Positions 1 to 64,000 of a stretch of 64,000 nt of DNA are shown here, piece after piece. Both the position numbers and the translations under genes were made by a program. This DNA is from Asterochloris sp. CNOR1 (taxonomy: Eukaryota > Chlorophyta > Trebouxiophyceae > Trebouxiales > Trebouxiaceae). The stretch's first letter is position 1. Every line of letters begins with the position of its first letter. The notes under the pieces are model-generated. The model did not search any database and had not been told where the DNA came from. It saw only the letters and a program-made list of their open reading frames with translations. Where the stretch lies: NCBI GenBank assembly GCA_963969365.1, contig OZ017759.1, positions 868,001-932,000 of the forward strand, given 5' to 3'.

Positions 1-847
1 CAGGCACAGGGGTGCAGCTTGCTGCACGCTTGATGCTCAGCTCAGGCTGTGCTCATGCCTGCAGAGTTGTGCACAGAGCTGTGCTGATTCCAGGTGAATG
101 CAGTGCAGCCCGCATGGCTGTGCATGCAGCAAGGGGCAATTATTGGTGAACGCTTACATTCACAGCTACCTCCATCCACCAGATCGCCTTCCCTGGATGC
201 AGATATGCATAACAACCATGGCCATTGTGGCAGCCTACCTGCTGGCACAGTATGCCATTGCCCACACCTTCACCATCGCCACTGTGGGCTGCGTGGCAGT
301 CGGGGCGTTCATCACTGCCTGCGTGTGGCTCACAGTGCATGATCAGGTGAGCCCGGGCTGCAGGGGGCCTGCCCAGGCAGATGTGCTGTGCGCCCATCCA
401 ATTGCGCATGCGAGTTGAAAGTGTGCTGTCAGGGTGCACACTGCTTTGGCTGACCTGCTGTCTGGCCATGCAAGCTGGCCATGCAAATCGTTGCAGGCCT
501 GGTCTGAGACTGTGCTGCTGGTTGAGTGCCACACTGCCAGTGCGTTGTGGTGGATGCCAAGCGTGTGATTGGTGCTGCAGGCTGTTGAAACAATGCTGCA
601 GTGTTTTTGCGAGGACTGCGAGCGCAATGACGGCTCCCCCATGCACCCCTTTTACATGCCCACCAAGCTGAAGCGCCTCATACTGGCATCAGACCAGCGA
701 TTGCGGCAGCAGAATAAAAGCAGCAGCAGCTCAGCAGCAGGAGGCACTCCGGAGCATGCCCCCGGCCTCATGGGCAGGATCAGAGACAGCATCTTCACAC
801 AACATGCATCGCCGAAGACGCAGCAGGTCTATGCTAGATTGACTTGA
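1..847 (+). CDS. choline-transporter-like (CTL/SLC44) protein, 3' end only
   Basis: Last part of a gene entering from the left. The final exon is 581-847. The one before ends at 346 (donor GTGAGC) and starts at about 203 or earlier (a TGCAG near 131 is an alternative), joining in phase 0. It encodes two hydrophobic segments and then the characteristic SLC44 C-terminal signature AVETMLQCFCEDCERNDGS, followed by PFYM and a basic Ser-rich cytosolic tail. CTL proteins are multi-pass membrane proteins linked to choline and lipid-headgroup transport and membrane trafficking. The substrate here is inferred from the family only. Exons further 5' lie outside the window or were not recognised in positions 1-200. 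The gene converges on the CHI-like gene with only 99 bp between the two stop codons. Confidence 0.75.
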
Positions 848-946
848 TCATCTTTGGAGCAGGTTCATCTTGCTCACACTCAACTGAAACATTCAGAAAT
901 GAAATTCAAATGTTGAGGCTGGGCAGGGGCCAGGTCAAGCGCATGG

Positions 947-3900
947 TCAGCCGCTGCCACCCCTGCGAGAGGCGCGCCGAACTTCCTCGCTGTCCAGCAG
1001 TTGCCGTGCGCCCTTGGCCCAGGCGGCCTTGGCCTCTGGCACCACAGTGCTGCCCCCAAGGTACACCTCGAACAGGGCGCGGCACATTCCAGGGGAGTCT
1101 ATCCTCAGGTCAGGCTCCGCCTGCAGGCCGGTCAATAAAGTGGTGGCAACCTTTGACGGGCTGGTCCTTGCAAGCCTGATCTTGCACTGGTTGCCAACAC
1201 TGACAGCGTAACCACACTCAGAGCAGCTGCTGGCAGGCTGGGGTGTGCAGCTGCAAGAGTAGCGCTCTGAGGTAGCATGTGCTGTCAGGCGGCCCCCTAC
1301 TGCTGACAAGCTTCATTTTGCTAAGGTCAGACTCAGTCATCCTGGATGCAGTTGATGTCCCCAGTCTGCGCTGTCTTGACTACCAGGGCTTCTGCTGCTG
1401 CTAGGCAACAGGACAAGACAGCCTGTCGGACAGGCTCATTTAGGAGTGACAGCCGGACAAGTTCAACTCCACTGTTGCTGTCAGATGGACCACACAATAT
1501 GCCCCATAGGTCAATCAGCTGTAGGAGTCAGGCTGCTCAAGTCTGGCAGGGCTCACCCTGGCATAGCTGTCCCCAGCCTGCCCAGCCTTGACGTCTAGGC
1601 GCCCGCTGGGATTCCACAGCAGCACAACGTCGCTGCCCTTCTCCAGGGTTCTGCCCTCAAAGAATTGCTTGAACTTGTTCAGCTTTGCTGTCTCCCCTGA
1701 CAATTGCAGGCGGGGCGCCAGAGCCTCCTCGATGGCCTGCAGTCCAAAACATCTGGAAGCTTGCTCAGCCTGGCTGTCTCCGCAGACAGCTGCAGGGCGG
1801 GGGCCTGAGGCCCCTCGGTTGCCTGCAGCTCAGAGGGTTTTGCTTGGAGGGGGGGAACAGCAGGTGGCGGCCAGATGGCACCTGCCTGGCTAACCTTCAG
1901 AAATCATGGCTGCACTTGCAGCGTTGCAACAACCCCCTTATGAGCAAAGAACAGAATCAGCATGCAGCGTGTGATGTTCAATTGCACACTGTTATAGGCA
2001 GAGGCTGCACAAAGCAGGCACAGCATGTGGCACCACTCATCATGTGTTCATTGGGTCACCCATGAGCAGAAGATGTGCATCCAGCAAGTTATGATTCCGC
2101 TTGCAGTCCTAATATGCAAGGGGAAGCCCAGATTGCGACCTGCTGTTACATTGCACCCCTCTCCTCAATATTGTTTCCTTCAATTCCGCAGAGTTGCACA
2201 AGTCCACAGGACTACTGGCCGCTGCAGCTTTCCCCACAACACAGCTAGACGCTGCCACTCACATCTCAAGCTCTTGCTGGCTGATGCAGCCCAGTCGGCA
2301 AAGAGGAGGTGCTGTTGAAACCCTCCCCACCACTTGTGCATACCGTGCAGATGCTGCTGGCTGCCCCTTTGCAGACCACACCTCAAAGAACTGCTTCCCC
2401 TCCACCTTCCGCGCCAGCTGCACATGCAGCACCTTGCCAAAAGCTCCATCGGTCAGCGCTTGGGCATAATCATCATCCCTGCAGCCAGGAGAGGAGAGAC
2501 AGTCAACAGAGCAAGCAGGCACCAGCAGCACTGCAGCTTCGCAGCAGCTGCATGTGCCGGGTACTGATAGCGTTTATGCAATGCTGCAGTCATTGCACTG
2601 CCTTTGTCAGTTGCATCTGGACAAGGTGGTGCCAACTGTCAGCAGCTGCAAGGCCTGGGCAGTACAAGGCCTTTGTAGAGGGGCTGCAGGAAGCTTTTGC
2701 CTCAAAATGGCACAGATGAGGCAGAGACACAATGAGCCCTTTGCAGAACAGGAAGCATCAGAAAGGAGCTGCAGGGAGCTATTGCCCAAGACTGTAGCAC
2801 AGACAAGGCCATCATACGTAGCTGAAAGCCAGCAGGTAGGACAGGCAGGGCAAGTTCAGGATCTCTGACAAGCCGCTCCACTTAAAATAGTGGGCAAGCG
2901 AGTTTCCTGAAACGCCCAGTCAGCAAGGATGTCAGGAGCAATTTGTTGTATGAAAAGGAGTATCCAGAGCCAACAGGCAGGGCAATCGTAGTTTCCAAAA
3001 GCTCCCTTTCAGACGGCCCACTACGCGCACCTGTTGTCTCCAAAGAAGCCCCCCCGGCTGCGGACGGCCAGCTCTGAGGCTGCCTTCTCGGCCTCCACAT
3101 ACAGGGCCACTGCATACACCTGTAGCCAGGCCACAGGTCTTGTACGTAACTCAACAGGGTATCTCAGTTCTCAGCCTCCACATACCAGGCGGGGCACACA
3201 CCTGCAGCCAGCCCACCAATCTTCTGCGTAGCACAATGCTACACTCAATTCTCTGCATCGCCACACACAAGACTAGGGTACACAAGCCTGCAGCCAGGCC
3301 ACGCATCTGATGTCAGCACAGCATCTCTGCAGCCCTGTGCATGGCCCAAGCCTTCAGGGCTGCCATACAGGCCTGGCATGAACTTCTGCTGCTGCCCCTG
3401 CTGCTGCTTGGACTGTTGTGGCTGTGTGGCAGCTCCGCACAGGCACAGCGCTGCATCCTTGCCTGCACCTGCAGCCAGGGTGCAGCTCTAGCACCGGAAT
3501 GCAGCTTTCTGTGGGCCGGCTGGGCGGCCGAGGGAGACAGCTCCGGCTGCAGTGGTGCACTCTGCTCGGCTGGGTTTGTGCCCTAAGCAGTCACCAACTG
3601 TTTTGCAATCCAAACGGAAACAGTTGTGCCTTCTGGTCTGTCAGAGGCTGGAAGGCCCACGAGTGACGCGAGGTGAGAGCGCTGGATCACCAGGTGCCTC
3701 ACCTTGACGCCAATGAAGCCGAACTTCTTTGACCGCACACCAGCGCCCATGCAGCGGAAGGGAGTGTCCCCCTCCCAGAAGCGCGCGACCAGCGGAAACT
3801 GGACTCCAGTGGCCTGCACACGGCACAGACCCAGTGCTGAGGTACCTGTCCAGGACAACAGCGGAAAGCTTAACGTAAAGACAAGTGATGTGCCCCGAGG

Positions 3901-4188: not shown

Positions 4189-4345
4189 GTGCAGTGGAAT
4201 AGTGGTACATTAGATGCAATGAGCAAGTGCAGCCTGTATGCTCCAATGCCAAAGATTGCAATTTGCAGGTGCTGATGTTCAGTCACGATATGGTTCTGTC
4301 CCATGTTGTACCTGCTGTCCTTGAAGAGGCTTGTGGCAGGTCCTC

Positions 4346-8635: not shown

Positions 8636-11600
8636 ATGTTCGTGACGTTCTTGTTGGGGTGTCTCGCAGTGTCCAGTGTCTGTCTGGCTTTGATCCTGCA
8701 CGATGTCGGGACCCTGCGAAATCGCAGGAAGCACAAGCAGGTGCGGCCAACTGCCCTCCAACTGACGCTGGTTGAGCTGGACGCTTTGCTTGGCACACAC
8801 ACTGAGCCCAGCACAGGAGCTCTGAGCATTGCTGATAGAGGAAATCTGTCGGAGGTTGGCAGCTGAGCTGGCACCCATGTGAAACAGCAGATCGCCCAGA
8901 AGGAGAGTCAGTGTCATGCATGCTGTGCAGGCTGATCAGGAGGCAGCTGCCTCTTCAGTCTTGCAGGGGGACCTTCCAGCTGCGGACAGCGGCGCAGACA
9001 GCGAAGAGAGCAGCACCACCGAGGCCGCTGGACTGCTTGTGCACCTGCAGCTGGACCGGTGAGGGCCCCACTCATGTCAGCGATGCTTGCGGCGACATGT
9101 GCAACCTTGTTGCTGCTCATGACACATGGGACATCGGTGCTATGCAGGCAGTGCAGCTCGGAGGGGAACTCTGCAGCCCCAGAACGCACCTTGACATCCA
9201 AGCGGGCAGTGCTTGTGGTGGCAGCCTGTGCCAGCTCAGCTGCAGGCATGGGTGCCCTCTTGCTGGGCACAAGGATCCTGTGGGACCATGGGTGGCACTC
9301 GAGGTCCCATGCATTCAGCGCTGATGCCTGTCAGCCACCAGGTGCCGCTGCTAGGCTGGAGCTGTATGGCAACCTGGGCGGTTTCCATCACCAGATCCTG
9401 ACTGACTCCGCGCAGGCTCAGAGCCTGTTTGACCTGGTGAGGGACTGTGCCTGCATGTTCTGGGAGTACCAGGTGGAAAGCAAAGCTTGCACCGGAATCA
9501 GGGTGCCGAAGCCGCTGCCTTCAAGGCCCCCTTCCATTCCACCACGATCAGCCTGATTGCATGGATTTAGCTCTTGTACATCTTCTGGCCATGCTGTTCC
9601 TGCTGCATGAGGCCCCCACATGCCTGAATGGTGGAGGGGGCCCTCTGTCTTTGCAGCCCCACAGGTGTCACTGGACCAGTGAGCAGCTCCCCGATCTGGC
9701 ATGCATGTGCTGCAGGGCCTGCTGCTGGAGTTTGCGTACAACCAGGGGGAGGCATACAGGACATTCCAGCTGGCAGCAGCTGCTGACCCTGCAGCAGCCA
9801 TGCCCCACTGGGGCATGGCCTTTGCCAAGGGGCCATACCCCAACAAGTGAGCCTGCTCTGGGCCGCCCTCTCATCTCATGTGACAGGAGGTGACACTTGT
9901 TGCCTGGCTGCTTTCCTCTGGTCACACAAGAGATATAGACAAAGTCATGTCACTATGTGGGAGACTCTGCCAGTGCAACTACATCAGGAAGTACGGGCTG
10001 ACGCGCACCAAGTATGCAGCATGATCAGGGCTGGCCTGGCAACTCGGCGGCCAAACCTGACCTGAAAGTGTGCACTGCAGGGCACCTTCGCTGTTCAAGC
10101 TGCCAGTAACAGCCTTTCTGCCAGAGGACTTTGCCGCGGCTCGTGCAAGCGCCGAGACGGCGCTGCAGCTAGCCCATGCAGCCGCTGTGGCACACGCTGG
10201 CGGCTCCCATGCTGAGGTGAGGCGGAGGTGTCGCTTTGCTCTCCACTGAGGCGGTGCTGGCCTGCTGCATCCTGCATGTTGCTGAGCATCGCCGCAGAAA
10301 CAGCGGCATGGCAGCGCAGCTCGCACCAGAGCTCACCCTTTGCATCAGGAATGTGCTATCACATGATCGTTCTGAAGGTGTCGTATGTGGCTGTGGCAGC
10401 TGGCCATCAGAGAGCTTCATCTGGCGGAGGCCATGCTGGCTCGCTTCCCACCTGGAAGCCACATGCCGCCAGCACGGGACGCTGCCGAGCAGCTGTATGC
10501 CCAGCGCATGGAGCAGCTTGGGGAGGAGGCAGGGGATGTGCACATGCTGGGGGTCGCTGCTGAAGCCTGGATGAATCACAGTCCAGCTTGGGACTATCTA
10601 CAGGTCAGCTGCTTGTGTGGTGGATGACATGTCTGGTCAAAGGCCATGTACATAATCTGGGTGCTGCAATTGTATCTGATTGCACCTCAAATTCTTGGGC
10701 TCAGTGCGGTTCAGCTGAACTGCACCAAGAAGGACCCAAGGTTCATCCAGACACAACTGCAGCACCCAGGTTGTGTACAGCATGGACTTCAAGCCTGAGA
10801 AGCCTGGCAGCCTGCAAGATTGTGGGTGCCAGGGTGGCAAAGCCTGGCTGAGCCTGAGGACCTCGGACTGAGTAGGGGTCAGTTGCCTGCTTTGCACAGG
10901 GTGGTTGCATGCCCGACGAAACATGTGGGCTGCAGGCACGGCCGGGCATCCCCTTGTACTTTGCATCTCACCGCAGCCTCGATTCAAGCTGCTCTGCAGG
11001 TGATGGGGTGTGTCTCTTCTCTGGCAGCAAGTGTACACTTCATCAGCTGCAGGAGATGGCTGTGTACACGGTGGGTTCAAAGCAGCAAGCCATCTTTCAG
11101 GTAGTGCAACAGTATTCAAGTTGCCCTTGCAGGGAGATGACGGCACACTCTTGGTGCTAACCCCTCTCTTCCCCCCTGTGGAGCCATTCACACTTCATGT
11201 TGCAAGAAGCTGCGCAACCCCCTCTTAAGGCCTGCAGGATGACAGCATGTACCCCAGCGTCAAGCAGGCTGAGCCTGTCATGATAGGAGCCTGACGCTAC
11301 CTTCCACCGCCTTGCAGGAGGATGGCAGCATGCGCCCCAGTGCCCAGCAGGCAGAGCGCATCATCGAGCGCGCCCTGCAGCTGGCCCCTGCCGATGCGCT
11401 GGCGCAGCACCTGAAAATCCACATTGCAGAGGCCTGCAGCCCGCTCAGGTGAGAACTTTTGCTGCATGCAGCTGGCTCCACAGCTGACTGCACCGTCACA
11501 GTCCGGGCATAGAAGCCTGCAGCCCTGTCTGGTGTGTACCCTGCTGCTTGGTGAGTGAGTGCGGGCACTCTTCTGTGCCCTGACTGCTGCTGCGTCCCTC

Positions 11601-18351: not shown

Positions 18352-18534
18352 GAGGAAACATCAGGGCATGTTCTGTACACAGTATGGCATGTATGAAAAT
18401 TCTCAGATAGCGTGCTTCGGAGTGCCAAGTCTGGACGTGGTGAAGAAAGCAAAGTTGATGAATGAACTTCAGTATCCGCTCGCTCCCAGGAGGTCAAGAC
18501 TTTGGGGCTCTGAGGGAAGGACACTGCTTGCAGA
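18352..18534. promoter_or_regulatory. compact divergent promoter, RNF25-like / oxygenase 1
   Basis: Only 183 bp separate the two predicted start codons, so the genes probably share a bidirectional promoter. No named motif is evident. The last few bases before the oxygenase ATG contain a TTGCAG, which could instead be the acceptor of a 5' UTR intron. Confidence 0.45.
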
Positions 18535-21500: not shown

Positions 21501-21762
21501 GCACCTGTCGGTACTGGCTGCGGCACTAAAGCGTTGAGTTGTGCTGCTGCTGCAGGTCAAGCTGCCTCTGCTGCCCATGCCCAGGGGGGCTGCTGTTGTT
21601 CCTAGCACTACATGGTTGCCTCTGCAGGTTGTCAAGTGCCTGCCCGAGTGCTGCAGCCCTGGGAATCCGCCCAAGCATGCCCCCACAACAGCAGGAGCCT
21701 ACATGCTGGAGCGCTATGGGGGCACCCATGCATCATTCTCTGACGCAGCAGTCAATGCATGA
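18535..21762 (+). CDS. 2-oxoglutarate/Fe(II)-dependent oxygenase, tandem copy 1
   Basis: Eight exons in phase: 18535-18634, 18707-18821, 19155-19222, 19528-19610, 19982-20173, 20645-20805, 21161-21263 and 21628-21762; 318 aa. It has an N-terminal DIOX_N region (IPVIDM, VVNHGIP near residue 34, RGYTPM) and a C-terminal jelly roll with iron ligands His194, Asp196 and His251 and the co-substrate pair Arg261-x-Ser263 (ERYSTAFF). These soluble enzymes hydroxylate or desaturate small molecules. Relatives include plant hormone and flavonoid oxygenases and isopenicillin N synthase, and the substrate cannot be told here. The HxD motif reads AHSDWG rather than the usual AHTDYG kept in copy 2. Intron 2 appears to be GC-AG (TTCAG|GCAGGC). 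Confidence 0.9.
20539..20577 (+). repeat. ghost copy of oxygenase exon 6 start, copy 1
   Basis: TGCAGGGCCTCTTTGGAGCA lies about 105 nt upstream of the true acceptor and exon start GCAGGGCATCTTTGCAGCAG. The matching place in copy 2 (24797-24837) has the same kind of ghost. Confidence 0.7.
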
Positions 21763-25900: not shown

Positions 25901-26052
25901 CCTGGTTGCCCCTGCAGGTCGTCGCGTGCCTGCCTGAGTGCTGCAGCCCTGGGAACCCGCCCAAGCATGCCCCCACAACAGCAGGAGCCTACATGCTGGG
26001 GCGCTATGGGGACACCCATGCATCATTCTCTGACACCGCAGTCAACGCGTGA
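22936..26052 (+). CDS. 2-oxoglutarate/Fe(II)-dependent oxygenase, tandem copy 2
   Basis: Eight exons with lengths identical to copy 1: 22936-23035, 23105-23219, 23547-23614, 23914-23996, 24317-24508, 24905-25065, 25436-25538 and 25918-26052; 318 aa. It has the same domains, with His194 and Asp196 in a canonical [11 protein letters not shown], His251, and Arg261-x-Ser263. The strand before His251 reads NLCDMLERW instead of the usual NLGDMLERW kept in copy 1. Intron 2 again starts GC (TTCAG|GCAGGC). Both genes look intact. They could have split substrates or expression after duplication. Confidence 0.9.
24797..24837 (+). repeat. ghost copy of oxygenase exon 6 start, copy 2
   Basis: TTTGCATGGCCTCTTTGAGG upstream of the true GCAGGGCATCTTTGGAGCAG. 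The acceptor has changed from GCAG to GCAT, so this copy can no longer splice at that point. Same relative position as in copy 1. Confidence 0.65.
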
Positions 26053-26403
26053 CATGTGGAGCTGGGGTCCCTCATGCTGCCACTCCAGTCTGGGTTGGCC
26101 TGCGAGTTGCTGTTGCTGTTCGCGTTAATATTTTTGGGATGCTGCTGTAGTGTAATTTGCTAGTGCTTGCTGTTGTAGGGCCATGTACATAATTGCTGAC
26201 TTAACTCCAGTGTTAATTTGAGTGTTGAGATCTGTAATATGTTGAAGAACATATGTGAGAAAGAAATGTTTTACAAACATGGGAGATAATGTAACAACAG
26301 ATGGGCACTTGAAGGCACGCAAATCTCTGTTTTGACTTGAATTTTTAAAAGTGCATGCTGAAAGGCACAGAGAGGTCAATGCAGATGAGAATTGCACAAT
26401 GGC
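26053..26403. other. convergent 3' gap, oxygenase 2 and the uncharacterised gene
   Basis: AT-rich segment with a TGTAA at 26151 and a second at about 26289. No gene seen. Part of it is homologous to 21763-22040 after copy 1. Confidence 0.4.
26151..26155 (+). terminator. likely polyadenylation signal TGTAA of oxygenase copy 2
   Basis: UGUAA is the main polyadenylation signal of chlorophyte algae. This one is 99 nt past the stop codon. The matching site after copy 1 has lost it. Confidence 0.4.
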
Positions 26404-48865: not shown

Positions 48866-51800
48866 TCACTTCTTGACAGCCTTTGCCCCTGCAACTGGTG
48901 CTGCAGGCCCTGCACTGGCTGTGATCTGCGTTGGGGCTGCTGCTGTAGCTGCCTTGGGGGTGGCTGCTGGCAGAGGCTCCTTGCCAGGGGTGTCTGGTGC
49001 AATCTCACCGACCTGCAGGGAGCCAAGCTGGCCTGTCACAAGCAGGCACCTGAGTGCATGCAGAGCCACACGCTCGACCTGCAATACTGCCTTGCTCACG
49101 GCATCAAGCCGCCTTGCACAGACTCTGAGCGGCCCAAGGCCCCATGTCATGCAAACTAGTGCATTTGGTGAGCAAGGCAGGGAGCCTTTCCTTGTCGCAG
49201 ACTGCCTGGCGTTATGCAATGTCTATGATAACATGCTGCTTAACATGCTGCCTCCCCATGCAGTCACAAACATGCTGGAGAGGGGCAGGCTTGCCTTGCC
49301 GCTGCGCTCCCGGATGTCCCGCACAATCAGCAGCAGGGTCGTCAACGTGATCAGGAAGATGATGCCACCTGCAATGATGCCCTTGACGCCAGCAGGGGTC
49401 AGGTGGGTGTTGTCTGCAGGCGAGGGAATGGTTCATAGCGAGTTGCTTGTGACAGGCCTTACAACCGCGCATACACCCGCAAATGTGAAGGCCATCGCTG
49501 GGGACAGCAATCCACTGCAGTCCACAGCATCTTCAGTCCAGGAAATGCTGCCACAGGCCCCAACATGTGTCTGCTTGAGGGTGCGCTGCACGACAGCAAC
49601 CCGGCTGCCTCACCCCGCAGCACTTCAAAATGCAGCTTGCAAGGCATGGCACACACTCCTGTTTTGTCCCATAGACGTGAGCCCAGTGGTGCTCTGCCAG
49701 CCCTTGACTTGCATCTGTGCTGCGGGGGTGCACTGCTCAGCAGCTGTCTGCTGCATGAGGCTGCAGCCGTGCGGACCACAGCCAGTTGGGGCATCGCACG
49801 CGCTCGCTCACCCAGGCACCAAGGGCCGAAGACATTTTTGCAGGTGGCGCCGGGCACAGTGGCCCCTGGCTTGACCTGGGAGGTGTTGACCAGCGTGATG
49901 CCCCAGGCTGACTCCCCCTGGGCCTGCAGCGCAGTCTGCAGGGCACGAGACATGGGAACGAATCAGAGATGCGAGGCAAAGTTGCTGATGATGACCCAGG
50001 CTGACTCCCCTGAGCCTGCAGCGCTGTCTGCACGCCATGAGACAGGGGAAGAACTCACAGGCTTTGAGCTATGCCTGAGGCTGCCTGCAATGTGGGCGGG
50101 ATGACTCGCAGATGGAGCGCTGGGCCTGCAGGCACGTCTGCAGCGCACAGGGCTCAGCGAGTCACATGCAATTGCTGAGGTCCAGGTAACCCCTGCAGCG
50201 ATGAGGCTCATTTGCAGCGCGAGCCTGCAGCGCTGTCTGGAGGGCACTTGACGGGGTTTCACTCCACAAACTGCACTGTAAGGGTCTTGGTGACACCCGC
50301 CTGGGCCTGCAGTGTCACCTGCAGGGCAGGAGGCAGTGGCATCACCACAGCAGGCTGGGCTTGAAAGCAGCTGTGAGCATGTATGAGCCCGGCAGCCACT
50401 GTTTGCCAATCCCTGCCGCAGCACACAGCGCTGTGTCTTGAGGAAACAGATCCACATCAGAGGAACCCATGAATGCAGTGGCGCTGCCTGCAGGCCCTCA
50501 AGCTCCAGGATGCAGAGTGTGCAACCACTCAGTGCATACAGCAGGGTCAGCCCTGCAGCAAGATCGGCCCTGTCAACATCTGTGAGCAACAGTGAGACCG
50601 CAGGTGAGCACCACCGCAGCACGCACAGCTCCTGCATGATGCCTACAGTCCACAGAGCAAAGGCGCTCAGAAGACACCGCGCTGATCACACTGCACCAAC
50701 AAGAAAGCTGCTTCCAGCAAAAGCTTACCGCGAGGGTGCCCCCGTCAACAGCCTCAACCACAGAGGTGTTGACACCAGACACAGCGCTCTCGCTGGCTGT
50801 ATTCATCTCCATTGTCACATCTGCCACATTGCTGAGATAGGTGCTGGCCAGCAGGCTGCGACGCCGGAAAGATGCGACTCCCTGCATGAGTAGCAGGCGC
50901 AACACCTGAAACGAACTCAGTGCACCACAATGTGTGCGGCGCTCTGCGTGGCTAGCCGGTGCTTTGCAAGAAGGGGGGCAGGCTACAAGGGGCTGCCACT
51001 GACGCGGGCGTCATCAGACTCGCTGCAGTCGCCAAGCGAAAGACAATTTCCTGCCAACTGACCTGCACGTTGGTGATGCGCAGCTTGTCAAAATCAACAT
51101 TGGCAATTGTGTAGCCGACGGCATACAGCAGGATCTTCTGCTTGTTGGTGTCAAAGGGGGTCACGCCGGGGCCAATCAGCCTGAATTTGGCTGCCAGGGC
51201 AGTCTTAAGGGCTGTGGAGGTGAAGGCAGTGGGCGGGGAGGGTGGCGGCGATGGCGGTGCGCCTGCACACAAGGCACAGGGTCCTTGTCATTTGCCCTGC
51301 GTTTCTGACATTGCTAATGGAATGTGCACAGCTTTCTGCATGGTGGGCCTGCAGCAGCCTGCACACGGCTGCACATGCGTGTCACTCCTGCCAAAAGTGG
51401 AGGTGAAGGGAGTCATTGAAGAGGGTGGGTGGCGGAGGCTGCGATTCTGACAGGTTTGTTGTGCAAACTGGAAACAGCGTTCCTGAGTGTCCTGCATCCC
51501 TGGTCGGGTACCAGGACTGTGCAGAGCTGGTGCAAGGAGGGCAATGGTCTGCACAAAGTACACCCAGGGTGGCCACTGGTAGCACTTCATGGGTTTAACA
51601 ATTGTGCAGCGCGGCTGCCAATTTGGGCGTGAGAGGCAGGCCGCACTTTTGCACACAAGACACAGGGATGTCAATCACAAAGGTCCTGCAGCAGGCTGTG
51701 CAGGGGCTTGCTGAATGCTGCGTTGCCATGGAACAGCTTGCTTCCACCAAGCAGGGTGCAGCAGCCCAAGGCATGTGCTGCACTGCAGGCTCGCAACTCC

Positions 51801-52971
51801 CTGGCCCACAAAGGCCAGCTGCCTGCCCGAGCAGATTGCACCCTGGCTGGTGATAATACGGCAGTGGCGGGCGCACTTGCTGACTCACATTTTGCGCTTT
51901 GTGGTCTGCATCGCTGTTCAGCAAACAGCAGGATGCCTAAGCCCCTGTATGAGCAGCAGACTGCAAAGCAACAAGCAAGCAGGGGCCCCTGGCGGTGACC
52001 CATGCTGACACAGATCAGCATGCTTGTGGCTGGCTGCCTCACCAACAGTTAGCTTTCATACAAACAACGAGAACCCCATGCTTAACCTGCCTGCCTCCCA
52101 AGCAGTGGTCCGCCTTGCACGCAAAGAGCAGCTCATGCTTGTCGCCAGCTGCCTCACCAACTGTGGGCAGGGGAGTCGCCGCTGGCGTGGCAGCTGGCGT
52201 GACCTTCGGCGCTGAGGTCGCCACGGGTGATGGTGAGGCCACTGCTGGGCTGGTCACTGCTGCTGGGGATGGGCTGGTCACAGCTGCTGGGGAGGGGCTG
52301 GTCACAGCTGCTGGCGAGGGTGACGTCACCGCTGCTGGGCTGGGGCTTGTCACTGTGGCTGGGCTTGTGACTGCTGCTGGGCTAGGGCTGGTGACGGTGG
52401 CCCCTGCACAGGTCGGAGGCAAAGGGTATTACAAGCCACAGCTGAAAGGAGGCACCGGCTTGGAGCACAGGCTTGAAGGCACAGGCTTGGAGGCAGAAGC
52501 TTTCAGGTAAGGGCTCAAGCAGAAGCAGCGCGTCGCGCAAGCAGAGCTGCAGCCGCTGATCTGGTGCCCATTGGCCATGCAGGGAGGCCATGCAGAGCAG
52601 CAGTGGCTCTGTTGGAGGCACCCTGGGGTTGTGGAAAGGACAGTGCAGCAATGAATTTTTGGCGGGCAGCTTGGCTCATGCATTGCGCTATCAGAGAAGG
52701 CAGATGCAAGCACTGGGACCTCATCTGCCAGCCTGCGCAGCATCAGATGCTGACTGGCTCTGAGCAATTGCAGAGAAGGCATTAGGCATGCTGACAGAGA
52801 GCAGCAGTGGGTGCGCTTGCTGTCAGCATTGACAGGCGGCAGCTTTTGCACGAGAGCAGGCGGGGGAGCATGGCACTGGACAGAAGACTTACCCAGGGCC
52901 TGGCCATGCAGCAGGCATCCTGCCAGCAGGGCCAGCAGGCAGCCTGCCACTGTCCTGCGCTTGAGCGCCAT
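48866..52971 (-). CDS. type I membrane protein with Ser/Pro-rich ectodomain and SEA-like fold
   Basis: Seven exons in phase: 52971-52893, 52403-52158, 51262-51063, 50905-50729, 49935-49812, 49413-49295 and 49012-48866; 363 aa. Signal peptide 1 to about 26 (VAGCLLALLAGCLLHGQALG). Residues 27-110 repeat TSPSPAAV about six times, a likely extensin-like O-glycosylated stalk. A second Pro-rich hinge (APPSPPPSPP) leads to a globular part with TALKTALAAKFRLIG, RRRSLLAS and NVADVTMEMNTASESAV with GGTLATALQAQG. That pattern is like the SEA-like modules often seen in surface proteins of volvocine and trebouxiophyte algae. One membrane helix is at about 287-306 (GIIAGGIIFLITLTTLLLIV), followed by a Lys/Ala/Pro tail. 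The last intron is GC-AG (AAG|GCAAGC). Probably a wall or plasma-membrane adhesion protein. Confidence 0.75.
49987..50335 (-). repeat. four ghosts of the exon that starts at 49935
   Basis: The true boundary on the plus strand reads GGGCCTGCAGCGCAGTCTGC. Related copies: GAGCCTGCAGCGCTGTCTGC (50002, with a CCCAGGCTGACTCCCC flank also shared), GGGCCTGCAGGCACGTCTGC (50122), GAGCCTGCAGCGCTGTCTGG (50222) and GGGCCTGCAGTGTCACCTGC (50304). The last can be read as VTLQAQAGVTKTLTVQFVE but meets a stop. Confidence 0.8.
52158..52403 (-). repeat. coding minisatellite, Ser/Pro/Ala/Val-Thr repeats
   Basis: Exon 2 of the type I gene is built of 18-27 nt units encoding TSPSPAAV and shorter forms. The unit number is expected to vary between strains. 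Confidence 0.7.
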
Positions 52972-54412: not shown

Positions 54413-57400
54413 CTACTTGTCTGCATACTGCACCAACAGCATGGCAGAGGGCGTCAGGCCCAGCTCTGTAAGCGTCTGCTGCAGGCAGCTGCTGTCGTAC
54501 ACCTTTCGCGGATGGGTGGAGGCCAGGCTGTAGTTCAGGCTGGTCAGCGCGTCCAGGGAGTCCACGAAATCATGCACGGCCTGTAGACAGAACACAGAGC
54601 TTTTGGCATCTGCTGGCTTCTGAGATGCTCAGGCCCTAGATCACGATGCGAGGGGTGATTCTCAAGTCATGCAAACTGTGTCAGGCGATCCACTTCCAGC
54701 AGTCTTCACCTGCAGTGACTGGCAGTGCAGCTGGTCAAGCCCCAAGACACACTCTGTGCAGGCAGCTCAGCCTAGAGTGTTGGTGGGCTGCTGCACAAAC
54801 AGCCCCAGCAGTGACCAGGAGGGTGACCACGTTGTGGCACTGAGTTTGAAAGGGTGGTCCCTCCTACAGCCCCACCTGCAGCTGGTTGGCAGCACGGAAT
54901 CGCCGCTGTGCACTGCTCCCGTCAGGCAACCGGACCCGAATGCTGGCCACCTGGGGACCTGCAGGCACCAACACAGATGCTGCTGGAGCAGCTGCTGACT
55001 TTGTCACTGCAATACAGGCTGCTGCCACTTGCAGGAGGCTGCACAGCAAGCCAGATGCCAGGCTGCATGCGGGCAGGCATCAGGCTGGGCAGCAGGCACA
55101 GTGAGGGCAGGTGCAGCATCAGCGTTTCACAATCAGAACCAGCGTAGCTGAGATGGCACGGCAGCGAGGTGAAGAGCTGACCTGCCGCCGGCTCAGCAGT
55201 CAGGGTTGCCTTCTTGCTGGCTCTGTGCTGATGCAGGTTCATGGCAGCCTGCTCCTCCCTGTGCTTGGCAGCGTCCTCCTCAGCCCTGCACACCCACAGA
55301 AGCTTCTCTGAGCCTGCCAGAAAAGCTTTACATCCTGCCTGAAGAACCTGCAGCAGGGCTGCCTGCTCATCCCTATGCCTGGCAGCGTCCTCCTCAGCCC
55401 TGCACACCATACTGCCATTACATCTGGCCCGCCGAGAACCGGTAAGCCTGTCAGTGTGTGAACCCTGCACACATCAGAAGCTCTCTTGCAATCATACAGA
55501 AAACCTTTGACATGCCAGCCAAACATTTTTCAGCAGGGCAGCCTGCGCCTTCTACTTCTGGGCCGCATCTCTTGTTCTTGTGGCAGAACATTTTGATTTT
55601 ATGGCACTGCCATAAAACCCATGACCTGCACCCTTGCTGCTAGGCAGCCTTCTCCTCAGCCCTGCACGCCGAAGACATGCTGATGTGGGGTGCCAGCACA
55701 GCATTGCTGCCAATGAAGCCATGAGCGCGGCGTGTTGCTCAGCAGCATCCTGTTCAGCCACACAAACCCCCTGAAGCAAATGCGCTTGGGTGTGCCAGAA
55801 AATGCTTTTCATAAGGCAACAAGCCCGAAGGGCACTAGCATCTGACAGGGTCTCTCTGCAAGTGCCCAGCCTGCTGGGTCAGCCGCTGCCAGGAGGCTCT
55901 GCCTCAGGAGCCGCTCATCTTGAGCTCCAACAGCAACAATACATGACAAAGGCAGGGGGCTGATTTTGTCTTGGCTGCGCTTGGCTGCACAGAGCAGCTC
56001 AGCCCTCAGACGCATCAAGTTGACCACTCACTGGTGCCTAGCTGCAGCTGGCGCCTCAGACAGCTCACTGCTTCTGCACCTCGCCACGCAGGGGCTGTGA
56101 CCCCCCGTTTCTCACGCAGCTCACTCTTCTGGCTGCAGCACCCTCCTCAACCTCCCACAGCACCTCAGCTCCCCCAGTGTGGCTCTGGTGCACAATACTG
56201 AGGCAGGTAGCGTGTACCCAGACAGAGGACTTGACAGACTCACTGTTGCTTTGCTGCAGCTGCGTCCTCAGCCTCCCGCGCCTCTTGAGCTGCCTGCTCC
56301 TTGGCAGCTCGCTGCCTCTCACGCTCCTGATCAGCTGCCAGCCCAGCCTCGTACTCTGCATCCTGCTCCTCCCTCAGGCGCCGGTTGAAGTCCTGCAGGC
56401 CGCACTGACACTGGTCAGACATCCAACCCTGTCCCGTCAGCATCCTGATGCTCTGTCAGGCTTTGTGAGTGGTCCTGCAAGCCAAAATGGCCCCAGCAGC
56501 ACCATGTGAGTGGGCCGGCCTGGTGCTCTGCATCCTGCTCCCCCCTTACACTCCGGTGAGACTCTTGCAGTCCTAACATCTCCAGCGGCACCATGTCAAA
56601 TGGCCAGCCTGATGCTCTGCATCCTGGCCCTTGCCCTGAAAGCTTCTATCCAGTTTTGGCAGGGCAGGACGATCATCTTGATGAGGTACATGTTCATGTA
56701 GAAGGGCATGCTAGAAATGTTGGCCCCTCGCCCCTTCGGGCTGCGATCAATGTCCTGCAGGGCAGACATGGCACTTGAATTGGGCTCAGTTGCAATGGGA
56801 ACCTATCTTGCCCTCCGGCAGCATCAGAAGCCCGCAGGGCAGGGCAAGCTGATCTCCTTGATGGCATGGCGCGAGCGCTAAGCTCTGTCTCCTGCTCCTC
56901 TTAAGAGCGGCGGCAAGTCTGGCTGGAGGGCTCTGCCCATTGCAAAGATGTGTTGTGTTCTGCCAGCACAGCAGCTGGCACAAGGTAAGAGCATGTGTTG
57001 TGTGCATCCTGTGCAGACAGCCAGGGCTTGAGCTGAGCACCTGAGCCAATCAGCCTGTTATTTGCATGCGGAACCACCAAGCCTGCCCTTCTGCACAGTA
57101 GACACAGCCACACAAGGCCATGGAAACGGTAATGAAGCTCACCCGCTCATTACGCTCTGTTCGCTCTGCCACAAACTCTGCACCATGATCCTCAACTGCT
57201 TTGCGCAGAGTCTGCATGGCAGAGGGACGTATGTTTGCATGTCGCGCCCCGCCTGCTGTAAACCACAACCGTGGACGGGAGGAGACTTCAAACTCAGCAA
57301 TGTGACAGGAGTGTGGGCCTGCTGTAGCAAGGGTGGCTTAGCTGCTGGCTAGCTTGATCTTGAAGTACAGTAGGTCACCATCACAGCACTACAGTGCTGC

Positions 57401-60400
57401 ATGTTGCAGCGCACAGAATGGCTTGGCAGGCCTGGGGTGAGGCAGGTGAGCTCAACGAGCAGCTGCTGCACCGGCCCTGTTGCGCTTGCAATCAACTTGC
57501 ATGTCACTGATGGCTGCTGCAATTGTGCTGCAGGTGCAGGCACACAGGCGTTGCATGAGGCTGACCTGCAACAGCTGCTGAGGCCCTGTGGCTCCCTGCA
57601 CAGATGCCACCAGCCTCGTGCGGGTTCCCGAGAATGCGAGCAGCCCCACATATGGGTAGGTTGTGACTTGCAGGCTGCTGCTGAGCTGCACAGCAGAGCA
57701 CATGTGTGGGTGCTTGAGCTATTGAGTGGCGTGCTGTGCATGGCACAGCGGAAGGGACAGTCATGACGTGAAAGGTTTGATCTGATCTGGGCTGAGTCTT
57801 GGGGCAGCCTGGGTGCTTATGTGCTGACCCTGCAGAAGGCACCAGGCATGCACAACCACTTCTCAGCTGCGCGACAGAGCCAGTATGTCTCAAGGTGCTG
57901 TTGTATGCTTCTGTGAAGTGCCACACTTCTGCCGCAGACTCCGTCCGCTGGGCTGGGAGATGGTGTCAGCCTGCACATGCCATGAGCCCATGATAGCTGC
58001 AAAGCAATGCAGATGTGCAAGCCCTGTCTGAGGACCACTGCTATTTTGTTGTAGGCTCACCCTCCAGGCATTGCTACTGGAGACATCGCCACCCCACGCG
58101 AGACACTCCTCGTTCAGGTAGCCAACCACTTCTGGGTCGCACAGCGTCCCCTGACAGAACTGTCGCGTGTCCTACATGGCAGATGGGCCCAGCTTTGTGT
58201 TACCACAATTCCTGTCCTGCACAGCAGTGGAGGCATGGAGCATGCGGGCAGCAGCAGCTCAGATGACACCGCCCTGGGTCCCTGGTGTGGCAGGACGGCG
58301 GGAAACCATCTGACCCCCAAGCAGCAGAGGGCGACTACACTGGCATGCACACTCAGTGCTGCTGGGAGCCCAGAAAACTCTGCCTGTTGCACCAGAGTGT
58401 GCCAGTGCATGGTGGTTGCAAGGTCGCAGCGGTAAATGTGGCAGGAACTTGGTACTCCCGCAGCATGCAGCATCTTGCACAGGGTGGTCTGTGCTCAATG
58501 ACAGGCCAGTGTCATACAGCCCGGGTGGGTGCCCAGAAACACCAGAAAGCTCCACATACCAGCTCTGCTGCAGCCGACATGGGGCAACATGCTGCAACAC
58601 CTGGTGCTGTGGGGAGTGCAGGTAGACGAGCAGAAATTTGAACTCTGCGTGGGCCTGCTGCGTGGCCTCCTGCCACCCGCACTCCAGCCACCGGGGCTGC
58701 ACTGCGCCATATGTTTCCCGGAAGCGATTGTTGAAGGAGGCAGCTGCCAGCTGTGCGTCCAGCTCCTGCCCACCCTGGCGCACTGCCTGCACAGCGCCTG
58801 CAGCCAGAGGAGTTGCATACTTTGTCGCCGGGGTGGCATGACTCTACAGTGGTTGCTGAGGGCGGCTGCTGGCTGGGCGTCAAGCTCCTGCTCACCTTAG
58901 CATGCTGCCTGCGTGGTGCCTGCAGCGGGACCGCAACTTGCCAATGAGTTATTGCGACAGCATGGATGATGCAGGAGGCAGCTGCTGGCTGGGCCCCTGC
59001 TTCACTGCTGTCCAGGACCTGCTACCAAGCAAGGCCTGCAGGCTGGACATGCCCACCACCAGCCTCAACACATGTTCGCGCTTCACAGCAACCAGTGTTG
59101 TGGCTAGCTGACAGGCCACCAGCTCATTCTGTCACTACTGGCAAACGCTGCTCCTGCCAGCAGATGGACCAGCGAGGTCAGACGGTACGGCAGTGCGCCC
59201 CACCTGCAAACATGTGGTAGATGGGCCCCGGCAGCAAGCGCTGGCCCAGCAGACTGACCAAGGAGGCCCCCAGGTTGAAGACGCCCGCCACCAGGCGCAG
59301 CCCCAGGCGCACAACGTCCAGGGGCAAGTTGACCACAAAGGCCAGGATGCCCTGTTGCTGAGCGGCACGGGCAGGGGGCCCTGCTTCTGCATGCTGGCGC
59401 CTCGGGCCGGCACTGCCTGCAGCGCAAACATGGGGGCTTGACGGGGGTGTGCAGGGACCAACAGCCAAGGGGGACGCTTGCAGCAGCACGAGCACCAGCC
59501 AGGATGTCCTGACGCATGGATGCTCTGGCAAGTCCACCAGCAGCTGCCCTGTTCTGCTCCGCCTGCAGTGCACCACAGGCAGAGCCTTGCATGGGCCTTC
59601 CAGGGGTCCTAGCCACAGCACGGCATGAGCAGCGCCCTGCTGCTGGGGGGCTCACGCAGTGGGGCCAGCTCCTGCATGCTGGCGGCTGGGGCCTGCACTG
59701 CCTGCAGCGCAGACAGAGCTGCTGTCATTGAGGGAGCGGGTTTTTTCAGCTCAATCGAGGATGCTGCTCCTGTAGCAGCATGAGCCTTAGCTGCCCTGCC
59801 GTTGCAGGCCGCGGCACTGGGCCCTGCTCCTGCGTGAAAAAGGCCCTAGAGGCAGGAGCTCTGGTGCCCTGAACAGCAGAGATGCCTGATAGCATATCAT
59901 GGGGTTGGCAGCTGCATCTGGCGCTACTTGCAGGGCACCACATGTTATTGCTCACGGCTCAGGGTTGAGTGAAGCGTTGGTGTTGCACACAAGCCCGGCT
60001 GGTAAGAGCCTAGAAAGCCATGACTGATTGTCACGCCATTCAAACTACATTGTGCAAAGTATCGTTGCTGGCAGGCCAGAGAATGTGCATGTCTGGCATG
60101 CTGGCAGTATGTAAAATGTTTGTGGGCACAAGAGGAGTGCACAGCACAGGCTCATTAAGTCATGCTGGAAGGGGCAGCATGACAGCAGGCATGCACTGCT
60201 TATGATCAACGCCTAGGTGCTGACCTGGGAGCGGTGCCAGCGGCCTTGGTGGTGTAGCTGCCACACGCGTGGGGGCGAACCGAGTGGGTGGGGATGCAGC
60301 AAGCTGCGACTCCTCTGCAGTACAGCTTGTGACCGTCAGAAGCAGATTGCTCTGCGACGTGTTGCACGCAGCGCCGCACAGCAGTGTGTGACACATGGAG

Positions 60401-60859: not shown

Positions 60860-63800
60860 ATGGGCTTTGCACGAAATCAAATTCTTGAAAGGAGTCAAAC
60901 CAGCAAGCCCTTTGCTCTGCAGAGACGTGTGCTCATTGGCAGTGCAGCAGCAACAGCCGGCGTGGTGGCAGCCTACCGCAATGACTTGACACAGCTGCAA
61001 TTTGACTTCTTTAGTGCTCTGGGACCTTTCCTGCGGCTGTTGGATGCAGAGACATCCCATAATGTGGCGATCTGGACAGCCAAGCAAGGCATCACCCCTC
61101 AGGTGCTTCCCAAGCTTCAGCCTGCTGACATTGCCACCTGCTGCGGTGCTTTGACGCTCTACAATGGCCGGCCTGTGGGCAATTTGCGCTGTGTTGGGAC
61201 TCACCACCATGGTATCGCAGCCACTGTTGGAGACTGTATGCTCTGGGATCCCCAGGAGGAGGGGTGTGCCTGCTAAGGGACTCCCCAAGCAGGGCTGCAC
61301 CTGTGAGGGGGGCCTGAGCGCCTCTGGCCTGCTGCTGGGGCACTCGCATCCACCGACACAGGCTTCTGGAGACTCAGGCAGACAAGCACTGCCCCCTGTG
61401 TTCTGCCGACATTGGTTTCTTGTGAAGCCAGGGAGGCAGGAGCTGCCTGTGGCAGCCATGCCCTTCACACTGTGGGGTTTCTCCCTGCAGGAGACACGTC
61501 CAGACCCACCCTGCCTCGCGGTCACCCTCTGGGGGCAGACCTTCTCAAACCCAGTAGGTGAGCTGCTGCACTGCATCCACCAAGCTGCACTGACATGTCA
61601 GCTCCCCTGCTGAGGGCAGAGGCACCACACAACAGCCTGCCCTTTAGCATTGCCAAAAGGAAGCACCCTGCTGACCTCACCAGCCGCTGTAACAGCGGAG
61701 GGTGTCTTACATGCAAAGCTGCATTCACAACACGGCAACAAGAACACTTGCCCAGAAGGACACCTCCCTTCATGCTGCAGGCCTGGCAGCTGGCTTTGAT
61801 AAGGATGGCGAGGCCCCAAAGGGGCTCCTGGGGCTTGGCTTCGGCTTCATGGAAGTAGGTCAGCTACACCTGCACCAGCAGCAAGCACCAGCAGCAGAGA
61901 ATGTAATGCAGAAGGCTGTGTCCGGTCTTTTCGCATTGTGCTGCATGGCGCCTGTCATGCTCTCTGAAGCAGTGCTGGTGGCCGCCCATTTGGGGGGTTC
62001 TGGGGTCAGTCTTGTATTGTGCACACAGCAGAGCAGGGCTTGGTCAGCTGTAGGCAAGGTTTGCAGAGGCTGGCGGTCTAGAGCCACCCTCTGCAATAGC
62101 AGCTGCTGTGGTATCCAGAGTCAGTTCTCTCAAGGTTTGCATTCAAGCTGCTTCAAGCCAGAGTGCACTTCTGCTGCTGCATCTCAGCACTCATTGTCTA
62201 CGTAGGCGCTGTTCATGTTGGTGCAGGTTCTGTCACACCCCTGCCACAGCCAGGCAACCCAAAGCCCCGCAGCTTCAGACTCCCTGAGCTAGGGTGAGCC
62301 TGCATGCAGCATGTCAATTTGCAAAGCACAGGAGCACCAGCTCCTCAGAGTGCTGTTCAAAATGGCAGCTTTATGCAGGTGTTTCACCTGCTCAGGGTCT
62401 CCCAGGCCATGACCAACATTGCATTGCTGACCTGCCCCTCACATCTAACCGGCCTGGCACTGTGTCACGTTGAGCTGACAGTGCGCTGCTCAGGGTGATC
62501 ACATGGAGAATGATGTCGTGATCCCAGTACGGAAAGCCTTTGCATGCCAACACGGGAGGCACAGGAGCCTCGCAGCCGGACCCAAGCACCTGCTGCCTGT
62601 GCGCCACCAGCAGACTTACAATGTTTGCATGCTGCCTGCAGGGGTCTCATCAACCGCTACGGCTTCAACAGCCAGGGGGTGGACGCTGTGCAGAGGAATC
62701 TGCAGGACTTCCGCGAGCAGCAGGCAGCTGAGCTGCTGCGGCTGCAGCGGCAGCACCAGGAGGCAAAGCAGCAGGCAGACTCTGGTGCTGAGCTCCAGGT
62801 GAGCACCAGGTCTGGCTGCATGTCTGCAGGATGCTTAGCGACAGCAGGAGGCGCGAAATCTAGGCAGGTGCAACCAATCAGGCTGTCGTCCAGACTCAAG
62901 GCTGCAGTGCCCCTGGATCTGCTTTGCCAGGAGGCGCAGCATCAGACAGGGCTCTGCTGACGCTGAGCACCAGGTGAATGCAGCTGTGCTGAAGTTTAGG
63001 TGCAGTAGAGCATGCGCAGCGCCGTGAAGCCCAGCACAATTCAGGTCCCTCAGATGCTAAAGCTCAGCCCCATCTGATGTTCTGCACTGCATCAATTGTG
63101 CAACAATCTGTATTGCAGCACCAGCAGACATGGTCCAGGCTAGCTCTGGTGAAGCTGGCACAGCCCACAGCACATGTTCAGGGTTGGAATTCTGCCGTCA
63201 GGAACCCTCAAGGCAGCACTACAAGGGTCAAAGTCAGAAGCACTCACAAGCACTTGTGTGTCATTGAGCCTGCAGGCGCTGCACTAACAGAGGCCCAGGA
63301 GGTGGCCCTGCCACGGGGTGACCACAGCTGTCTGACCTGCCCGGCATGCTTGCAGGTGCTGTGCCTGCAGTGGCGCAGAGATTGCCCGGCTGCGCCAGCA
63401 CTCCTGTCAGAACCTTTACCCACACGTCTGCAGGTGCTCAGGCCCGATGGCCAGGCCATGGACTGACACCTGACAGGGACACACCTGACAGCAGATCCTT
63501 TAGCTGTGTCTTATAGACCTGTACGCGCCACATTCACAGCACTCCAGGCCTTTATGGTGTGAATCTGGGGAGACCACTTCAGCAGAGCTGGCATCCCTGC
63601 CAACAATGGCTGCAGGCCGCTGCATAAAGTCTGGCCAGCAACCTGGCTGTGCCATTGAGTTGAGCCCAAAGTTGATGGGCATTGATCCCCTGCGTGCTTG
63701 CAGGTGCCCCACCCCCAGTGGCCCAAAGGCCTCTTGGCTGTGAACCTGGGGAAGAACAAGGAAAGCGAGGATGCTGCAGCAGACTACGCCATGGGTGTCA

Positions 63801-64000
63801 GGAAGCTTGGGCATTATGCAGACATACTGGTGGTCAACATCTCATCACCCAACACCCCGGGTGAGGTCAACAGCAGGTCACTCAGCATCATTGTGCCTTT
63901 GTGCCAGTGTGCAGACATGCTGGAGACCAACCATGCGCTCCCACACCTCAGGTCAGGCCCGATCAAAGCTGCTGTGCCTCATGTTCCTGCAAGCCTTGCC
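60860..64000 (+). CDS. dihydroorotate dehydrogenase (quinone), mitochondrial class 2, 5' part
   Basis: Six exons in phase: 60860-61102, 61491-61557, 61781-61858, 62227-62293, 62642-62798 and 63704-63860, about 256 residues; the rest lies beyond the window. The basic N terminus and the helix [20 protein letters not shown] are the mitochondrial signal and inner-membrane anchor. FMN-barrel blocks follow: [63 protein letters not shown] and [13 protein letters not shown]. The enzyme oxidises dihydroorotate to orotate, passing electrons to ubiquinone, in pyrimidine synthesis. About 30 extra Gln/Glu-rich residues sit between the RYGFN block and VNLGKN ([20 protein letters not shown]). Confidence 0.9.
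62925..62976 (+). repeat. ghost of the DHODH exon 5 donor edge
   Basis: CCAGGAGGCGCAGCATCAGA with GCTGAGCACCAGGTGA repeats CCAGGAGGCAAAGCAGCAGG with GCTGAGCTCCAGGTGA (62756-62801). It is about 170 bp into the downstream intron and its GTGA donor is intact. Confidence 0.75.
63430..63457 (+). repeat. ghost of the DHODH exon 6 acceptor edge
   Basis: TGCAGGTGCTCAGGCCCGAT with GGCCAGGCC repeats TGCAGGTGCCCCACCCCCAG with TGGCCCAAAGGCC at 63699. The acceptor is intact. Confidence 0.6.

Follow-up and report, generated by a model that had tools for sequence, protein, structure and literature searches.

Introns in a 64,000-nucleotide stretch of the genome of the alga Asterochloris sp. CNOR1 (contig 14, bases 868001–932000; hereafter the window) contain short same-strand copies of the edges of adjacent exons, often with the splice site included. 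We call these copies ghosts. The pattern is confirmed by controls and is found beyond the window as well as inside it. We consider it probable, at roughly 0.6, that ghosts are old products of local DNA copy-and-insert events, probably caused by template switching, and that the exon bias visible today is largely a consequence of survivorship.

Near same-strand pairs are abundant within and beyond the window

The scan set consisted of 264 kb drawn from the 56.4-Mb genome (21 contigs): the window plus 20 loci of 10 kb each, whose positions were preset with one or two per contig. A second set of five loci (50 kb) was added later. Each sequence was compared with itself by BLAST. A near pair was defined as two matching segments offset by no more than 600 nucleotides (nt), with a score of at least 40 as the main cut-off or at least 34 as the relaxed one.

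Self-comparison of the window (E ≤ 0.1) reveals 40 same-strand pairs. Two of these are blocks of a tandem gene pair, and 36 of the remaining 38 have their members no more than 500 nt apart. Four matches are on opposite strands, three of which are palindromes. Across the window and the 20 loci, 71 near same-strand pairs but no near opposite-strand pairs score at least 40, along with five far same-strand and two far opposite-strand pairs. Local order-2 resampled sequence yields one near same-strand pair at this cut-off. At the relaxed cut-off there are 118 near same-strand pairs versus two on opposite strands, and the two near opposite-strand pairs of the window itself score 33 and 32. The five later loci add 16 near same-strand pairs and none on opposite strands. 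These counts are far above chance and bear out a preliminary description of the window, which had reported that introns hold copies, on the same strand, of the edges of neighboring exons.

Near pairs number 33 in the window (64 kb), 38 in the 200 kb of other loci and 16 in the 50 kb of later loci, with densities between 0 and 10 per 10 kb. Of the 25 loci outside the window, 19 have one near pair or more, if coding repeats are counted. The same pipeline found no pairs in 50 kb of Escherichia coli K-12, a sequence that has no introns and thus is a control of the BLAST procedure alone.

Genes were predicted with a two-strand exon–intron hidden Markov model that was trained on the fetched sequence and seeded with seven kinase segments. 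The trained model has a CAG/GTGAG-like donor signal and a CTGCAG/G-like acceptor signal. Within the window it predicts 13 genes and recovers those named in the preliminary description. All eight predicted proteins submitted to Pfam, three of them in shortened form, match families consistent with those names (chalcone isomerase, RWD, 2OG oxygenase, protein kinase, mitochondrial carrier, MAGE [NSE3], UBX/FAF and DHODH). Predictions of small exons are unreliable, and the model takes some ghosts for exons.

When the 71 pairs are classified by these gene models, 46 join an exon to an intron, compared with 24.7 ± 3.9 under random placement. The other classes are intron–intron (12 observed, 29.0 random), exon–exon (11 and 5.6) and intergenic (2 and 7.8). 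Introns were also compared directly with their own flanking exons, using the 357 of 609 introns that are at least 60 nt long and have flanking exons of at least 30 nt (714 comparisons). At a score of at least 30, matches occur in 27 comparisons, versus 1.05 for the exons of other genes and two for the reverse complement. At a score of at least 34, the corresponding values are 21, 0.15 and zero. This check had been set beforehand, and the outcome named as speaking against the pattern, similarity to own exons no higher than to other exons, was not what was found.

The 45 near same-strand pairs of the window that score at least 34, not all of which are exon–intron pairs, are spread over 10 of the 13 predicted genes. 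Eleven are in the kinase gene, eight in the gene for a type I protein (two being coding repeats), eight in the UBX gene, four in NSE3 and five in the RNF25-like gene, which has two more in common with the end of the TPR gene. The FAP and TPR genes have two each, and oxygenase A, the carrier and the ankyrin gene have one each. Oxygenase B has a ghost only at a score of 31. For DHODH there is no pair at 34 or above and one weak pair (score 32), and a ghost is not confirmed.

Copies are short, close to their source and made from unspliced template

The 71 pairs have lengths of 22 to 180 nt (60 are 25 to 69 nt), offsets of 63 to 504 nt and gaps of 10 to 480 nt, with gaps of 30 to 248 nt in 58 pairs. 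The median length of exon–intron pairs is 48 nt. At the relaxed cut-off, 107 of the 118 near same-strand pairs have offsets between 50 and 300 nt: 34 pairs at 50–100 nt, 26 at 100–150, 19 at 150–200, 17 at 200–250 and 11 at 250–300, with the remaining 11 at 300–600. The flanking sequences mostly show no relationship, including those around copies of 86%–93% identity. Mean extension of similarity into the flanks is 1.57 and 1.49, versus 1.14 and 1.16 for permuted flanks (65 of 71 pairs). Three pairs in locus L019 beyond base 8600 and two window pairs at 52230–52400 (coding repeats) were left out of the flank, age, exon-bias, splice-site and clustering counts, and the flank-extension test additionally omits locus L028.

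Ghosts are found on both sides of their source. Among 59 exon–intron pairs scoring at least 34, the ghost is upstream of the source in 27 and downstream in 32; when the later loci are included, the numbers are 37 and 40 (pairs without an assigned gene strand are skipped). Upstream ghosts begin 4 to 34 nt ahead of the acceptor in 22 of 27 cases, and downstream ghosts extend past the 3′ end of the exon in 16 of 32. Ghosts also fall on the same exons more often than expected: 12 of the 803 exons bear at least two, versus an expectation of 4.35 and a maximum of 11 in 2000 random draws.

Copies cross exon–intron boundaries but rarely cross spliced junctions, which indicates that the template was unspliced and hence was either DNA or pre-mRNA. 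Thirty-two non-self matches cross an exon–intron boundary (922 junctions tested), compared with three that cross an exon–exon junction (461 tested). The best of these three (locus L018, score 52) is a ghost of a donor edge whose match beyond the junction is poor, and the other two, both in L019, are gapped alignments of 70%–73% identity. Copying from mRNA was rejected on these numbers.

A search of the whole genome with 13 ghosts returned 22 matches, all of them in the window at the ghost itself or at its local partner; this search skips very common words and recovered the known source for seven of the 13 ghosts. The spacers between ghost and source likewise appear to be unique, as 11 of 11 match only themselves in a genome-wide DNA search, and no dispersed source was found.

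Ghosts decay like intron sequence, and few are young

Exons and their ghosts differ by 17.8% overall. Differences by codon position are 97/639 (15.2%), 105/639 (16.4%) and 141/647 (21.8%). Stop codons are present at 12 of 604 ghost codons, and 14 of 59 pairs contain gaps. The ghost acceptor retains an exact TGCAG in 11 of 30 cases and an intact AG in 21 of 30, and the ghost donor retains GT or GC in 13 of 23. For comparison, internal exonic 5-mers are kept exactly in 422 of 1526 cases (27.7%). From the codon-position, stop and splice-site counts, we conclude that ghosts decay much as introns do, splice sites included. Together with the restriction of pairs to short distances and the local genome-wide matches, this intron-like decay supports the earlier proposal of a local, same-strand process followed by decay.

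The window contains tandem duplicated 2OG oxygenase genes at 18507–22321 (copy A) and 22908–26687 (copy B). A genome DNA search with copy A finds only these two tandem copies. They serve as a local clock: their exons differ by 8.7% and their introns by 24.7%. One ghost is common to both paralogs, and the copy in oxygenase B lacks the acceptor AG.

Young copies are scarce. Among 62 pairs of at least 35 nt, only two are at least 90% identical. In simulations, a process at steady state places 30% of such pairs at or above this identity, whereas a single age gives 3.5% (t = 0.15 neutral substitutions per site) or 1.5% (t = 0.20), and ages uniform between 0.12 and 0.45 give 2.7%. At steady state, older age classes cannot be denser than younger ones, however old copies are removed. 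The options are that the process has all but stopped or that copies were laden with errors from birth. The substitution spectrum (191 transitions and 152 transversions between exons and ghosts) gives no support for the second option, as it resembles that of introns (346 and 298 for the paralogous oxygenase introns). We therefore favor an old episode in which new copies have been rare since roughly 0.12 to 0.15 neutral substitutions per site ago. A weak additional indication comes from the oxygenase paralogs, where none of four insertions of at least 25 nt is a local copy and a rough estimate for a steady rate is about two.

Survivorship probably explains much of the exon bias

In the favored mechanism, a stretch of ~25 to 100 nt would be duplicated into a site mostly 60 to 300 nt from its source, with its orientation kept and the ghost as the inserted member of the pair. 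The copying probably involved a template switch, made while a break was repaired or DNA was replicated, and synthesis-dependent strand annealing with out-of-register re-annealing is a candidate route. Insertions into introns would be tolerated. Exon-into-intron copies would remain recognizable since selection holds the exon copy in place, and intron-into-intron copies would fade faster. Such differential fading may give the impression of a process aimed at exon edges even if the copying itself was not. The episode would be old, with new copies now rare.

Two features of the data bear on this impression. An apparent preference for exons is expected because intron–intron copies decay on both sides and exon–intron copies mainly on one. 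A bias toward exon edges is expected because offsets mostly below 300 nt allow mainly the near-edge parts of an exon to pair with intron sequence. Under neutrality, with sources spread uniformly and targets confined to introns, a model that takes its exon rate and roughly its indel rate from the paralog pair gives exon–intron to intron–intron ratios of 0.67 at t = 0.15, 1.0 at 0.21, 2.3 at 0.25 and 4.4 at 0.30. The observed numbers are 57 and 17. (The length simulation described below and the age and bias simulations give different ratios for these classes, as they differ in class rule, indel rate and offsets.) Survivorship accounts for much of the exon bias and could account for all of it if the copies are older, or the exons slower to change, than assumed. 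Targeting of exon edges, as proposed in the preliminary description, is thus not needed for most of the pattern, although a residual exon excess may exist.

Several observations weigh against this mechanism. The identity of exon–intron pairs of at least 35 nt (79.9%) fits t ~0.20, an age at which the simulation yields about equal numbers in the two classes, yet 57 and 17 are seen. Intron–intron pairs of this length are no less alike (81.7%), and a single age predicts that they should be. A real exon preference of up to approximately threefold is compatible with the counts. Clustering of ghosts on the same exons is not predicted by a uniform process; this clustering and the exon excess are the chief loose end and the ground for a reading in which exons were targeted. 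The slight excess of flank extension over the permuted value also runs counter to short copies with unrelated flanks. The lengths of simulated dispersed copies fit in part because they were built in through the chosen inputs. Diverged copies elsewhere in the genome may have been missed, because the genome-wide search recovered seven of the 13 known sources. In the oxygenase paralogs, no empty site is seen, and one of the insertions, 17 nt long, duplicates directly adjoining sequence. Finally, breakpoints are unreadable after decay of this degree.

Alternative explanations

The preliminary description had proposed that exon edges were repeatedly duplicated in tandem and that the copies then decayed. 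In such a model, the duplicated unit would equal the offset, with the ghost as its exonic part. The array at 3085–3308 looks like such a product: it repeats an exon edge with periods of ~83 and 86 nt, and its spacer aligns as well. The 12 exons with two or more ghosts and the small excess of flank extension also could be read in this manner. However, flanks are mostly unrelated despite copies of 86%–93% identity, and most pairs have the wide gaps noted above. Whole tandem units simulated to a median identity of ~75% appear with a median length of 179 nt and a gap of 16 nt, not the 48 nt observed, whereas simulated dispersed copies of 25 to 100 nt are seen as ~60 nt at 80%–82% identity (these copy lengths and, in the length simulation, the offsets were set by hand). 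Duplication of whole units is therefore not supported for most pairs, the array excepted, and we regard it as improbable. Copying directed at exons is likewise a doubtful alternative, if one to be kept in mind a little more. Here, a process tied to transcription or splicing, for example through R-loops or pausing at splice sites, would preferentially have placed copies of exon edges, taken from unspliced DNA, in the introns next to them. This is suggested by the 57 to 17 ratio, as the neutral simulation gives ~1 to 1 at t = 0.21, and by the clustering of ghosts. The excess is nonetheless dependent on age, shrinking to a small value at t = 0.25 and vanishing at t = 0.30; upstream and downstream ghosts are about equal in number; and the two intergenic pairs are too few for calibration. 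Equally tentative is a variant in which preferential copying from transcribed but unspliced DNA carried exon edges into adjacent introns at a high rate during a bounded episode and then nearly stopped.

Another possibility is that ghosts are functional, serving under selection as alternative or decoy exons or as reservoirs of splice sites, which would explain the lack of young ones. Near-identical copies are indeed scarce, some ghosts retain both an acceptor and an uninterrupted frame and are predicted as exons (17330–17387 and 55354–55408), and exact TGCAG is retained slightly more often than internal 5-mers are. Against this, differences are nearly flat across codon positions save the third, stops have accumulated, nine of 30 acceptor ghosts have lost AG, 10 of 23 donor ghosts have lost GT or GC, and the oxygenase B ghost lacks its acceptor AG. 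Function of this kind is quite unlikely. It is more unlikely still that ghosts are traces left by introner elements or by the birth of introns from tandemly duplicated exonic segments. Introns do hold copies of flanking exons, and among 581 introns local scores between the two junctions exceed the null (10 versus 0.4 at a score of at least 28, and 20 versus 4.2 at 24 or above), an excess that we put down to the ghosts themselves. The donor and acceptor junctions of these introns are not alike in register (0.257 versus 0.256 ± 0.002 for shuffled junctions), and no dispersed matches were found among the ghosts searched. Least credible of all is an artefact, whether from gene prediction, base composition or the abundance of CTGCAG. 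Exons, introns and intergenic DNA all contain this motif at 7 to 16 times the expected frequency (window and loci L009–L033), but the controls are nearly empty (no near opposite-strand pairs at 40 or above, one resampled pair and ~1 match in 714 comparisons with exons of other genes), and pair counts at 40 or above do not depend on the gene model. Because CTGCAG is over-represented everywhere, its presence at ghosts is no evidence for the microhomology that the preliminary description had invoked.

Relationship to known duplications

The preliminary description knew of no named system that matches ghosts, but precedents exist. The doublets of Thomas et al. 2004 are reportedly short, close, same-strand pairs that arise by a local, polarity-conserving process, and are said to be exact matches found in mammals, Arabidopsis and C. 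elegans, partly at distances of ~1 kb. Ghosts are like doublets in length (25–100 nt for doublets; 60 of 71 pairs at 25–69 nt here), in strand (71 near same-strand pairs and no near opposite-strand ones here, at 40 or above) and in close spacing with an unduplicated spacer (offsets of 63–504 nt and 11 of 11 spacers unique here). They differ in that doublets are nearly exact and only two of 62 pairs here reach 90% identity, which age can explain. In addition, most offsets here end near 300 nt, copies are mostly 75%–90% alike, hardly any are young, and most visible pairs join an exon and an intron. We class ghosts as a variant whose workings resemble those of doublets, without identifying them as such.

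The second precedent is repair-mediated duplication (Pace et al. 2009, PMC2671141). That report describes 824 proximal duplications in human, attributes them to synthesis-dependent strand annealing and points to the Thomas et al. doublets as a similar case. Exons and splice sites are among the copied sequences, the donor lies near the acceptor site, and activity fell through primate evolution, all of which resemble what is seen here. The human duplications are at least 50 bp long, lie inside transposable elements and have empty sites in relatives, and one exon copy is in opposite orientation; ghosts are shorter, closer and on the same strand.

Other systems are less similar. Small tandem duplications at breaks, linked to polymerase alpha-primase/CST (PMC8355091), are also short, local and associated with break repair, but they are tandem, whereas the 71 pairs here have spacers of 10 to 480 nt. 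Intron gain by tandem genomic duplication (PMC3443670, PMC4974935) likewise duplicates an exonic segment, part of which becomes intronic, but the in-register junction homology expected from it was not seen in the 581 introns. Tandem or mutually exclusive exons (PMC6071210) are exon copies beside an exon, but they are spliced and coding, and ghosts are fragments that show no sign of coding constraint. Introners and other transposed introns are dispersed, but within the limited sensitivity of the searches neither the 13 ghosts nor the 11 spacers matched anything beyond their own locus. No title or abstract opening returned by a literature search describes copies of exon edges in the introns of algae.

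Ghosts in the window

The kinase gene (plus strand) provides several examples. The 3′ edge of the exon predicted at 34289–34525, with its donor GT (34471–34527), recurs at 34646–34701 with 86% identity and an offset of 175 nt, and genome-wide matches to this ghost are itself and its source only. An acceptor edge at 31778–31825, which includes the start of exon 31812–31910, has a ghost at 31693–31740 that comprises 34 nt of intron and 14 nt of exon (87.5%). Further acceptor-edge ghosts are located at 31249–31310 (exon 31363–31419, 79%) and 35978–36015 (exon 36086–36271, 84%), and a copy of exon segment 32698–32727 is present at 32869–32898 (93% over 30 nt). Exon 27960–28120 has two ghosts, a donor-edge copy at 28250–28281 (source 28100–28131, 88%) and a second copy at 28302–28334 (source 28073–28105, 85%).

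On the minus strand, the RNF25-like gene carries three acceptor-edge ghosts: 17330–17387 (source 17185–17242, 78%), which is predicted as an exon; 17505–17557, which is 77% identical to the first; and 17727–17750 (96% over 24 nt to the exon). The 3′ part of an exon of this gene is copied with the donor at 16044–16129 (source 16257–16345, 79%). In the UBX gene (minus strand), the acceptor edge at 55240–55294 has a ghost at 55354–55408 (91%), also predicted as an exon, and a second at 55638–55670 (88%) with an in-frame stop as read from the alignment. Two further acceptor-edge ghosts of this gene are at 58861–58926 (source 58739–58804, 77%), again with an in-frame stop as read, and at 59634–59715 (source 59349–59430, 83% over 82 nt), which is partly predicted as an exon.

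Other minus-strand ghosts include acceptor edges of the type I protein gene at 49989–50050 (source 49896–49958, 87%) and of the FAP/chalcone-isomerase-like gene (Pfam PF02431) at 1760–1828 (source 1674–1742, 78%), a copy of a carrier exon at 40227–40253 (source 40330–40356, 93% over 27 nt), and the tandem-like array at 3085–3308. On the plus strand, NSE3 has ghosts of an exon 3′ edge at 46802–46846 (source 46711–46756, 80%) and of an exon start at 45864–45891 (source 45961–45988, 89%), and the ankyrin gene has a ghost of an exon 3′ edge at 42948–42997 (source 42832–42881, 76%). Also on this strand is the acceptor-edge ghost of oxygenase A at 20540–20562 (source 20641–20663, score 36), whose weaker counterpart in oxygenase B begins at ~24798 (score 31).

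Additional observations

The oxygenase introns contain a nearly identical run (~19000–19102 and 23397–23499) that, judged by sequence, looks like gene conversion. An imperfect palindrome lies in the TPR gene at 10647–10779, forming an inverted repeat on itself with 73.5% identity over 136 columns. GC donors are predicted, despite a penalty in the model, for 55 of 656 introns (window and loci L002–L028). CpG is strongly depleted, with observed/expected ratios of 0.32 in introns, 0.47 in exons and 0.38 in intergenic DNA, and TpG and CpA are at 1.6–1.8 (window and L009–L033); this depletion suggests long-standing CpG methylation.

Two loci outside the window are also of note. L001, on a 43-kb contig (C19), is a 3.75-kb locus with 49% GC and a 713-amino-acid open frame that matches kinases, and it is possibly foreign or a contaminant. 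L028 (10 kb, 52% GC) has no predicted genes and contains a 180-nt pair of 87% identity with a 46-nt gap; this region is perhaps a transposon.

Implications

Intron growth is usually ascribed to transposons and small indels. In this genome, local copying has left recognizable exon fragments in introns, often with a splice site. Annotation is affected, as two of the ghosts given above are predicted as exons by the gene finder. Ghosts supply possible cryptic splice sites that are close by and correctly oriented. Exons change slowly and thus offer a reference, which makes exon-edge ghosts a dated fossil record of past local copying; the record here is of a process that has nearly ceased. If an exon-directed episode were the true explanation, its rate would have been high, with a visible pair every 2 to 5 kb, and introns would be made in part of the debris of their own exons.

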